Positions 22,838 to 56,151 of a DNA stretch of 64,000 nt are shown here, piece after piece. How positions within the stretch are numbered: the stretch's first letter is position 1; each line of letters opens with the position of its first letter. The DNA is from Candidatus Gastranaerophilales bacterium (GTDB lineage: Bacteria; Cyanobacteriota; Vampirovibrionia; Gastranaerophilales; Gastranaerophilaceae). The stretch lies in NCBI GenBank assembly GCA_944322885.1, contig CALUQH010000005.1, positions 1 to 64,000 of the forward strand, in the 5' to 3' direction. Both the position numbers and the translations under genes were made by a program. A model generated the notes under the pieces. The model ran no database searches and was not told the DNA's origin. It saw nothing but the letters and a program-made list of their open reading frames with translations.

Positions 22838-24220
22838 ATGGAAACAACAGTAACTAACAAAACTCTTGAAAAATTAAAATATGATATGGTCAGAGCAGGT
22901 CTTGTTCCTTATGAAACAATTGAGCAGGCCGAAGAAGTTGCTAATGCACAAAATATTAATATAGGACAAGCTCTTATAAATTCCGGCACCATATCCGAAG
23001 AAACCATTCTAAAATTTTTGGAATCAAAATTGCATATCCCATACGTCAATCTTGATGACTACACACTCGATACAAAATGCCTGAAATTTATAAATTTTTC
23101 GGATGCAAAAAAATACAGAATTATACCGCTTTTTAAAATAGAAGATACACTGACTGTTGCAATGGCTGACCCTCTGGATCTTTTTGCTATTGATAAAATT
23201 ATAGAAACTGCGGAATGCTCGATTGAACCTGTAATATCTTCCGAAAGCAGTATTTTAAAAAAAATTGATGAGTATTACAAACAGGACTCTTCCATAGGTG
23301 AAATTCACGTGGAAGACGGTATTGAATACGACTGGCGCGATGAACTTCACAGCGAAGATTTATCTGATAACCATATTCAAAAAATTATTACTGCAATTTT
23401 AAAACAGGCAATTCTTGAAGGAGTGCACGAAGTTACTTTTCAAAATGATGAAAACGGATTTGCGGTTAATTTCAAGAAAAACGGAGAACTTTTAAACAAG
23501 GGAAATATTCCTCAAGGTTTGACTTCGTCATTTACTGCTAAATTAAAAACACTTGCAGAACTTGACGCATCCGTAAGCGAAGTACCGCAGCTGGGGAAAA
23601 TATCTTTTAAAGTGGATGATATGAATGTTGTTACAAGCATATCAACTTTTCCTACTATTATGGGAGAAAGAATTTTTCTTAAAATTTATAAACCTCCAAA
23701 GCATTTGAATCAAATTATCAAGTCTGAAAAATCTTTAAATATAGTAAAATCAGCGCTTAATATCCCCGGAATTATTATTGTATGCGGGTCTCCATTGAGC
23801 GGAAAAACACATATTATTTATTCTTTGCTTCTGGAAGCTGCCGATAAAAACAAAAACATTATGACTCTTGAAAGCATTGCAAAATATAATCTGAAAAACG
23901 TTCATCAATGCGAGCTTAATGAAAATGTGGGATTTAATATGGATAAAGCTTCACGTTTTATAGAGTTTCAATCGCCTGATGTTATTTATCTGGAAGGAAT
24001 TAAAACAAAAGAATCATTTGACTATTTTGCAAGTCTTGTTTTTGATAACAAAACAATTATTATGGAATTCCTTGCAAATAATATGGATGATTTGAGATAT
24101 AAGCTATCATTCTCTGATTTTGAAACATTAAAATCACTGATAAGCTGTATGATATTTATCCACTCTCAGGATAGTATAGAAGTATTTTCAAAAGAAGCCG
24201 TCCAAAAATATTTGGCTTAA
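22838..24220 (+). CDS. Divergent GspE/PilB-type secretion or pilus ATPase
   Basis: The N-terminal T2SSE-N/MshEN-like domain (residues about 10-150; LINSGTISEETILKFLESKLHIPYV and AMADPLDLFAIDK) is well formed and in this family may bind c-di-GMP. The ATPase half is degraded relative to GspE. The start of the core lacks the ASDIHIEP motif (EGVHEVTFQ instead), though STFPTIMGERIFLKI and Walker A GSPLSGKTH (317-325) are kept. The Walker B region reads PDVIYLEGIKT instead of DxIMVGEIRD, and the zinc CxxC motif is absent. It may be a regulatory or weak ATPase rather than the main assembly motor. It is coupled to the CheY-like gene upstream. Confidence 0.82.
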   Translation: METTVTNKTLEKLKYDMVRAGLVPYETIEQAEEVANAQNINIGQALINSGTISEETILKFLESKLHIPYVNLDDYTLDTKCLKFINFSDAKKYRIIPLFKIEDTLTVAMADPLDLFAIDKIIETAECSIEPVISSESSILKKIDEYYKQDSSIGEIHVEDGIEYDWRDELHSEDLSDNHIQKIITAILKQAILEGVHEVTFQNDENGFAVNFKKNGELLNKGNIPQGLTSSFTAKLKTLAELDASVSEVPQLGKISFKVDDMNVVTSISTFPTIMGERIFLKIYKPPKHLNQIIKSEKSLNIVKSALNIPGIIIVCGSPLSGKTHIIYSLLLEAADKNKNIMTLESIAKYNLKNVHQCELNENVGFNMDKASRFIEFQSPDVIYLEGIKTKESFDYFASLVFDNKTIIMEFLANNMDDLRYKLSFSDFETLKSLISCMIFIHSQDSIEVFSKEAVQKYLA

Positions 24221-24222
24221 AC

Positions 24223-24945
24223 TTATTTCCAAAAAGCGTTATCATACAAAGCCCTATTTGTACATGCTATACCATTTTTATTGTTAGAAGCTCCTTTTGA
24301 ACAATAAGTTTCCTCGTCATAATCAGTACCATCAGCCCCCATTGGCAAAAGTTTACCATTATCCATTAATTGAAATGTAAATGTATCCTCTCCCCATTTG
24401 TTGGGAAGCTTACGATAACCGTTTACATCAACCGTAACATAAACTTCACCATGAAAAGCACTCGAGTTTGTGTTTTCAAACAGTAACATCGAACCGTCAG
24501 TTAATATAAGCTGTCCATCATCAAAAAAATCTTCATTTGCGGTATTTCCTGAATAAGTTTTGTATGTAAATTTACCGTCAGCAGTATAAGTACCATTTTG
24601 TAAACATAATACATTGCCGCTTATCCCCTGCTGTGCGCCACAGTCAACCAGAATTTTTAAATATGGCTTAAGATAAGAATAAAATGCGGACTGCCTACGA
24701 GAACAATCAGATTTTGTGAGCGCTTCACCGTTATCCTCTTTGTATCTATCCAGAGCCTGCAGCAAAACAGAATACCCCTTATTTAGACCGCTCTGAAATT
24801 GTTTTTTCCTATAATTCGCAACCAGAGAAGGTATTGTCATAGCAGCAACAATACCGATAATACCAAGGGTAATTAACACCTCAGCTAACGTAAAACCGTA
24901 TCGGGAGCCTAGAATCGCCCCCCCCCCGAAATTTCGGGCAAACAT
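24223..24945 (-). CDS. Orphan type II/IV pseudopilin A (frame broken at a G10 tract)
   Basis: Type IV pilin-like protein with the prepilin cleavage motif G|FTLAEVLITLGIIGIVAAMTI, a helical spine, and the family C-terminal signature VDVNGYRKLPNKWGEDTFTF near residue 170. It would be processed by the PilD-type peptidase at 59061. The ATG at 24945 lacks a usable SD. The properly spaced SD (AAAGGAG) and promoter serve an ATG at 24965. That frame runs through ten G and stops at TAG; with eleven G it would enter the pilin frame exactly. As written the gene is probably off, or is expressed through slippage. The coordinates give the longest pilin-frame reading; the true start is probably 24965. Confidence 0.85.
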   Translation of the reverse strand: MFARNFGGGAILGSRYGFTLAEVLITLGIIGIVAAMTIPSLVANYRKKQFQSGLNKGYSVLLQALDRYKEDNGEALTKSDCSRRQSAFYSYLKPYLKILVDCGAQQGISGNVLCLQNGTYTADGKFTYKTYSGNTANEDFFDDGQLILTDGSMLLFENTNSSAFHGEVYVTVDVNGYRKLPNKWGEDTFTFQLMDNGKLLPMGADGTDYDEETYCSKGASNNKNGIACTNRALYDNAFWK

Positions 24946-24965
24946 AAATCTTCAAAATTTTTCAT
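24909..24965 (-). other. SD-led short ORF blocking pseudopilin A
   Basis: From ATG 24965 (SD AAAGGAG, six-base spacer) the frame reads MKNFEDLCLPEISGGGRF and stops at 24911-24909, just past the G10 run. One extra G fuses it to pseudopilin A with a leader of about 24 residues. It could instead act as a regulatory upstream ORF. Confidence 0.7.
24918..24927. repeat. C10/G10 homopolymer in the pseudopilin A leader
   Basis: Ten consecutive C on the plus strand (G in the gene sense) inside AT-rich DNA. It is flanked by AGAATCG and GAAATTTC; part of the right flank forms the 14-base palindrome CCCGAAATTTCGGG. It is a near-copy of the tract at 55311-55320. Confidence 0.95.
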
Positions 24966-55250: not shown

Positions 55251-55285
55251 AAAAACATAAATTTTTTAAATTTAGGAGGAAAACA

Positions 55286-55336
55286 ATGATATTAAGAGAG
55301 CTGAGAATTGCCCCCCCCCCGAAAATTCAAGTATAG
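55286..55336 (+). other. SD-led short ORF blocking pseudopilin F
   Basis: From ATG 55286 the frame reads MILRELRIAPPPKIQV and stops at TAG 55334-55336, just past the C10 tract. With eleven C it stays open for 36 codons and joins the pseudopilin F frame at 55393 without a stop. Confidence 0.7.
55311..55320. repeat. C10 homopolymer upstream of pseudopilin F
   Basis: Ten C on the plus strand flanked by AGAATTG and GAAAATTC, near-identical to the flanks of the tract at 24918-24927, and also in a pseudopilin leader. Only these two runs of eight or more G/C were noticed in the window. Confidence 0.95.
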
Positions 55337-55392
55337 CAAGAGATTTAGTCAAACATATTTACTTAAAAAAAAATGTATGCAATAATAGTGAT

Positions 55393-56151
55393 ATGATACA
55401 TCATATAAATAAACCTGGTTTTACTCTTGCGGAAGTTTTAATTACCTTAGGTATTATCGGAGTCGTTGCAGCAATGACTATGCCGGCATTGATTACCAAT
55501 CATAAATATATGGTTCTGCAAAATCAATTTAAAGCAGCATATTCTGATTTAAATCAGGCCGCTAAACTTTTTCAGGTACATAATGACATGTACGTAGGTG
55601 AATATGCCGCAAGCTATACTTCGAAAGATGCTTTAAATGAATTTTCGAAAGAATTTAAAACAGTTTTAAAAACTTCTAATCTAATGTACGATTCTACTGA
55701 TGACGAGGGTACCAGTATTGGTGCAAGACCATGGCATTGGAGATCAATAAGTGGAAGCACTTCCGGCGGCACAGTATCAGCTTGTGATGTAAGCGGTTTT
55801 TTCTGGGATCCTCAAGGTCGGGTAATATCATTTGACGATCCTCCACTTTCAGGAGACAACGGGCCTAAAATTTGTATTGATATAAACGGAGAAAAAGCAC
55901 CTAATCGATACGGGGCAGATTTTTTTATCTTTATGTTTACAACAGACGGATATGTTATTCCATGGGGACAGGAGCACAAAGATAATCCAGAAAAGACCAG
56001 CGGGAATGGGAACTATACCGTTTCAAAAACAATATGCAAATATACTTCATCCATAACTGATCAGCTGGCCTGTTCAAACTATGCTCTTATTAACCGGCAC
56101 CCGACAGATTCAGGTAAAGATTACTGGCATGATTTTGTCAGAGGAAGATAA
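55393..56151 (+). CDS. Orphan pseudopilin F (C10 tract upstream keeps it out of frame)
   Basis: Prepilin motif KPG|FTLAEVLITLGIIGVVAAMTM, helix with QNQFKAAYSDLNQAAKLF, signature IDINGEKAPNRYGADFFIF near residue 165, and a Cys-containing C-terminus. The ATG at 55393 gives a typical nine-residue leader but has no SD. A weak -35/-10 (TTTACT-17-AATAAT) six bases upstream could make a leaderless message from it. The stronger promoter and SD belong to the ATG at 55286, which is one base out of frame because of the C10 tract. Expression may therefore switch with tract length. It converges on pyrG with nine bases between. Confidence 0.83.
   Translation: MIHHINKPGFTLAEVLITLGIIGVVAAMTMPALITNHKYMVLQNQFKAAYSDLNQAAKLFQVHNDMYVGEYAASYTSKDALNEFSKEFKTVLKTSNLMYDSTDDEGTSIGARPWHWRSISGSTSGGTVSACDVSGFFWDPQGRVISFDDPPLSGDNGPKICIDINGEKAPNRYGADFFIFMFTTDGYVIPWGQEHKDNPEKTSGNGNYTVSKTICKYTSSITDQLACSNYALINRHPTDSGKDYWHDFVRGR

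Follow-up and report, generated by a model that had tools for sequence, protein, structure and literature searches.

We find that an element built around a run of ten C or G residues recurs throughout the genome of a Candidatus Gastranaerophilales bacterium, mostly in the leaders of type IV pilin-like genes, where the run lies between the ribosome-binding start and the pilin body. The element is, with a probability of roughly 0.8, a slipped-strand phase-variation switch, and it apparently provides a genome-wide on/off control over dozens of surface-fibre genes. Two copies occur in the window (the whole stretch of DNA that was analysed, 64 kb in length), in the following setting:

22838 to 24220, plus strand: PilB/MshE-type assembly ATPase (T2SSE + MshEN), convergent with gene A and adjoining it
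24223 to 24945, minus strand: gene A, type IV pilin-like protein, ORF of 240 aa with an N_methyl (prepilin) motif
24911 to 24935, plus strand: element copy A, AGAATCG-C10-GAAATTTC, C10 tract at 24918-24927, antisense to gene A
24963 to 24965, minus strand: start codon of gene A, with Shine-Dalgarno AAAGGAG; the pilin frame is reached only at tract length 11
55286 to 55288, plus strand: start codon of gene F, with Shine-Dalgarno AGGAGG at 55274-55279
55304 to 55328, plus strand: element copy F, AGAATTG-C10-GAAAATTC, C10 tract at 55311-55320, sense to gene F
55393 to 56151, plus strand: body of gene F, type IV pilin-like protein, ORF of 252 aa with an N_methyl motif, opening at an internal ATG without a clear Shine-Dalgarno

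The two copies (AGAATCGCCCCCCCCCCGAAATTTC at 24911-24935 and AGAATTGCCCCCCCCCCGAAAATTC at 55304-55328) are identical at 23 of 25 positions and differ at positions 6 and 22. The first-pass annotation had described a 25-bp element shared by two pseudopilin leaders, antisense in A and sense in F, and this description holds, with gene A encoded on the minus strand and F on the plus strand. Both proteins score above the cut-off for PF07963 (N_methyl). The class III leader with its G/A-F-T-L-x-E motif and the long N-terminal helix that define type IV pilins are present. The predicted structure of protein F has an N-terminal helix of ~53 residues (12-64) followed by a beta-rich head (mean pLDDT 82); a Foldseek search of this model against solved structures in the PDB gave no match at E ≤ 0.001. 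All six overlapping C8 matches in the window fall within the two C10 tracts, compared with 0.16 expected from dinucleotide shuffles, none of which (0 of 100) reached six, and the 64-kb window holds no other C/G run of at least 8. Read from its Shine-Dalgarno start, gene A ends after 18 codons at C10 and extends to 247 at C11; at C10 the sole readable entry is the internal ATG at 24945, which has no Shine-Dalgarno. Gene F likewise meets a stop after 16 codons at C10 and reads through at 11 (288 aa).

Searching for further copies and for the genes downstream of them, as the first-pass annotation had suggested, showed the element to be neither confined to these two genes nor scattered without relation to surface genes. 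The window's genome (1.86 Mb, 40 contigs, ~35% GC) contains 70 C/G tracts of at least 8, comprising 58 C10, 5 C11, 3 C9 and 4 C8. A pilin motif lies downstream of 60 of these 70, and of 74 of the 75 tracts in G031, a relative with large contigs; the window's genome has 92 N_methyl motif matches overall. Among 29 genomes of the genus, summing over the genome tables gives 64 GC9G, 1,276 GC10G and 81 GC11G, so that ~90% of tracts are exactly 10 and ~5-6% are 11, with a maximum of 165 GC10G in G043 (~2.2 Mb). Ordinary C/G runs become scarcer as they lengthen, and there are hardly any of 6-8; C10 thus forms a peak of its own, distinct from the tail end of a distribution. Tract length differs among the related genomes, as slipped-strand variation would require, these lengths being consensus calls from draft genomes with one genome per species. 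Across ~85,000 species genomes, the pattern AGARYG-C10-GAA was found mostly in Candidatus Gastranaerophilales / Melainabacteria gut MAGs, together with a few apparent chance matches. Elsewhere in the family some genera carry tracts (59 GC10G in G036) and most carry none.

Pilin-like matches number from 10 to at least 150 per genome of the genus, in genomes of ~1.6-2.2 Mb that include G031 and G043. Two members of the genus, G155 and G029, have more than 100 pilin matches each, yet almost no GC10G; G029 has 15 C11 tracts instead, many of them edged by A or T on one side. These genomes may represent a lineage with a different set length, or one in which the system was lost. Furthermore, a C8 copy at G000:C30:22961 (L073:5562) lacks the right flanking G, and its direction is opposite to that of the contig's other tract; it seems to be an element that has decayed.

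In the pilin genes the tract lies inside the leader, ~20-40 bases past a start codon, in most cases one preceded by a Shine-Dalgarno, and hence within the coding frame between the SD/ATG and the pilin body, the position expected for a slipped-strand switch. Reading from the start to the FTLAEVL motif, the frame is closed at 10 and open at 11 (or 8), for either orientation of the gene. Across three sets of C10 pilins, 123 of the 133 that could be scored need +1 (or -2) to reach the pilin body, 7 are open and 3 need -1, with 13 further C10 pilins not scorable and outside this total; start codons were picked by a simple SD score, and individual frame calls may err. Pilins with C11 tracts behave differently (21 of 28 open; Fisher p = 9e-15 versus C10). 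Most of these come from 40 GC11G loci taken from 13 other genomes, among which 22 pilins could be scored and 18 of them have an open frame at 11, the total of 28 being reached with the C11 pilins of G000 and G031. The distances from start to tract and from tract to motif vary, and the remainder of their sum is constant, which points to selection for a frame that is open at 11.

We considered whether internal starts could make the tract irrelevant. This was ruled out, as 97 of the 123 closed pilins have no in-frame ATG downstream of the tract. The remaining 26 do have one, with an SD-like sequence before the internal start in 13, thus OFF may be partial for those genes. A TATAAT-like sequence precedes the post-tract ATG in a number of closed pilins, for example ATGTTATAATTGT (window 55365-55400, with similar leaders elsewhere), and this could be an internal promoter with a leaderless start.

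Genes other than pilins provide a control for the frame. All five non-pilin C10 genes of the window's genome (two glycosyltransferase-like genes, one for an iron-sulfur protein, one frame of 916 codons and one that is EF-hand-like, identities that were read from sequence) are in frame at the called length of 10. Conversely, 5 of 6 scorable non-pilin C11 genes from the 13 other genomes are broken at 11 and intact at 10. A change of one unit therefore flips the frame in both groups, in opposite directions in pilins (7 of 133 open at C10, 21 of 28 at C11) and in enzymes. The carriers are surface-related in that they are N_methyl pilins and, as read from their sequences, GT2-like and related enzymes. 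The same control bears on a possible assembly artefact, in which a true length of 11 was called as 10 and the pilins are really open. Closure of almost all pilins by exactly one base is what such an undercount would produce, but it has next to no probability: non-pilin genes are in frame at the called 10, the same assemblies report C11 elsewhere, and the result repeats over many independent assemblies. The called length of 10 is thus very likely correct and the pilins very likely truly closed in the DNA.

The tracts are strictly oriented with respect to replication. In G031, the tract strand switches twice in 70 neighbour pairs and the gene strand 29 times, and the two tract switches bracket the minimum (~315-332 kb, contig 1) and the maximum (~617-625 kb, contig 2) of the cumulative GC skew. 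Assuming the usual G-rich leading strand, it is this strand that carries G10, and the lagging strand carries C10. In sampled stretches of the window's genome, the sign agrees in 21 of 26 contigs with uniformly pointing tracts, including the contig of the window, and the replichore pattern is repeated in G043, G018, G036 and G147. A general strand bias of G runs was ruled out, as runs of 4-5 are unoriented in G000 and only moderately oriented in G031 (231:239 and 214:148, respectively, for runs of 4). The first-pass annotation had raised the possibility of a recombination or binding site. The sense/antisense difference between the two copies in the window does not point to inversion or to a recombination site, because all copies point alike relative to the fork. 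The element is sense in F and antisense in A because its direction is set by the replication fork and not by the gene, and inversion of a gene or of an invertible segment was ruled out on the same grounds. A tree of 131 pilin bodies requires at least 28 changes between the sense and antisense classes (30-43 with shuffled labels), a rough count given a quick tree and divergent bodies, so the orientation relative to the gene has changed often while the fork rule was kept.

The sequence next to the tract is also conserved. In the C orientation the consensus is rAGCTYTARANYTG-C10-GA, common to the sense and antisense classes. The flank is coding before the tract in sense genes and after it in antisense genes, thus coding constraint cannot explain its conservation. 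Under a PWM built from antisense copies only, 71% of sense copies score at p < 0.05 on this flank and 0% on the opposite flank. Furthermore, the pilin matrix gives high scores to 11 non-pilin copies as well (combined p = 6e-7), the 12-bp flank recurring in unrelated genes with its orientation kept. Together with the orientation, this implies that the behaviour of slippage, or the stability of the tract, may depend on fork direction and local sequence. The first-pass annotation had set a defined, perhaps mobile or copied, cassette against chance slippage. Its cassette is borne out as a repeated module with conserved, oriented flanks, which may have originated by copying or mobility. The contrast with slippage is not, since tract length sets the frame (11 for pilins, 10 for enzymes) and length variants occur, so that the element behaves as a slippage tract.

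We propose that slippage during replication from 10 to 11 would open the pilin frame, closed at 10, and that the reverse step would close it again, while glycosyltransferase-like and other carriers, open at 10, would be switched off by slippage. The tract would have an attractor at 10; pilins, set one step above it, would be mostly OFF and enzymes, set on it, mostly ON. With dozens of such genes and ~5-6% of tracts at 11, few pilins would be made per cell, and cells would differ. Slippage within a strain is inferred from the length differences between species; switching in living populations, a role for fork direction and flank, and the biological use are likewise proposed. A reason for the attractor may possibly lie in a bias of the C. 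jejuni type: according to a passage in PMC4085013 that cites earlier work, polyG tracts in that species show an insertion bias at G8-9 and a deletion bias at G10-11. G10 on the leading strand may be needed for the stability of the tract or for the right kind of slippage; mutation of G tracts depends on the leading strand, where GnT extension is far stronger (PMC12344412). As a speculation, ten Gs are just below the eleven required for a two-layer quadruplex with one-base loops, and tracts of at least 11 could be prone to deletion.

Classical phase-variable tracts commonly have lengths of 8-12 (PMC4965091, PMC5135748). The length of 10 is held more tightly here, thus simple neutral slippage may not explain everything. 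Loss of mismatch repair as the cause was ruled out, as MutS1 was found in nearly all these genomes; hence there is no easy mutator background. We tentatively suggest, with considerable doubt, that the 24-bp module serves specifically as a slippage site directed by the fork. Its flank and leading-strand G10 would be recognised by the replication machinery, or by a protein dedicated to this task, which would keep the tract at 10 and generate rare +1 events (yielding a sparse repertoire of few pilins per cell); in another form of this suggestion, the module would be copied strand-specifically into new genes.

Poly-G/C contingency loci of Campylobacter jejuni and Helicobacter resemble this system in having a C/G tract in the coding frame, a mode near 10, one-base ON/OFF switching and surface-related genes. 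In C. jejuni there are 12-29 tracts per genome, and the lengths spread over 8-12 (G8 257, G9 214, G10 431, G11 77, G12 9; PMC4965091), whereas here a genome has up to 165 GC10G and ~90% of tracts are exactly 10. In contrast to the Campylobacter and Helicobacter loci, the tracts described here have fixed G..G flanks, a conserved and oriented 12-bp flank and a strict replichore orientation, and the pilins are OFF at the common length. In one H. equorum genome there are 67 tracts, 9-15 in length, whose flanking bases are mixed and whose orientation switches 8 times among 38 neighbours; the difference from the switches in G031 (p = 0.003) argues that contingency loci do not in general show a strict fork orientation or fixed flanks. 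We regard the system as a new version of homopolymer phase variation, unusually large and orderly; among the open-access papers searched, none was found that links Gastranaerophilales to pilin phase variation.

Other explanations fit part of the data. Programmed frameshifting would leave the DNA fixed at C10, and slippage of RNA polymerase or a -1 shift of the ribosome would give a set share of full-length pilin from each copy. The length near 10 is indeed fixed, the shift needed is almost always +1/-2 in both orientations, and runs of C or G are slippery on either strand. We nevertheless consider it quite unlikely, because orientation tracks replication and not transcription, enzymes carry the element in frame at 10, where a shift only harms, and C11 alleles exist and are mostly in frame. 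Also unlikely is a site for recombination or gene conversion, at which the leading-strand G-run, Chi-like or G-quadruplex-like, would exchange pilin 5' modules or bodies as at gonococcal pilE. The pilins do form one large paralogous family with a common 5' module, the 28 or more class changes mean that leader and body recombined or that the element was regained many times, and polarity with respect to replication is a trait of Chi. In Neisseria, a single expressed pilE locus is converted from silent copies via an upstream G4, and the two systems have in common variation of a type IV pilin and a G-rich DNA element near a pilin gene. Here, in contrast, the tract lies within the leaders of dozens of separate genes, each with a start; since almost all pilin copies possess an SD and a start of their own, they are not silent cassettes of the promoterless or startless pilE type. 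Copies also lie within unrelated enzymes, and a recombination signal would not need an exact length with a frame logic. Chi and KOPS motifs are spread genome-wide independently of gene type. They too give a G-rich leading strand and flip in orientation at origin and terminus, as we observe, whereas the present element is found mainly in pilin leaders and some surface-biosynthesis-like genes, has a role in the frame, and lacks such a genome-wide spread.

Two further explanations concern the origin of the tract. A tiny mobile or copied insert could target one strand at the fork, with phase variation as a side effect or a use acquired afterwards. Such an insert would suit the strict fork orientation, the acceptance of other inserted repeats by pilin leaders and the recurrence of the oriented 12-bp flank in genes that are unrelated, but we saw no target duplication, terminal repeat or mobilising gene, and in enzymes the tract seems, by eye, to sit in loops with no obvious increase in length, which makes this improbable. 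Tract-less pilins of outlier genomes have short leaders (M-x5-8-G^FTLAEV); these are non-orthologous and thus do not form empty-site pairs. The tracts could also be scars without selected function, grown as leading-strand G tracts by the GnT hotspot, whose strand preference (PMC12344412) agrees with their orientation. This is highly improbable, as GnT mutation substitutes bases and leaves the frame unshifted, whereas the tracts are concentrated in pilin leaders, have a consistently set frame and conserved flanks, and runs of 6-8 are nearly absent.

If the phase-variation reading is correct, these uncultured gut relatives of cyanobacteria hold a very large phase-variable set of surface genes, with most pilins off by default. 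Cells of a single population would display differing small subsets of pilins, which would bear on encounters with the host, phages and neighbours. The fork-linked orientation and the recurring flank also open an old question to direct test, namely which features in cis determine how fast and in which direction homopolymers slip. There is also a risk for annotation, in that dozens of real pilin genes could be called broken or started at wrong internal codons.

Finally, several pilin leaders (L186, L203, L206, L208 and L057 near 9712) have long inserted repeats between the tract and the cleavage site. These read VIPNLFRDL / VILNLFQDL or GGKDAxRxKDAKRRRCKA, and such leaders can be very long. Inserted repetitive DNA thus seems to be tolerated by the cleaved pilin leader.
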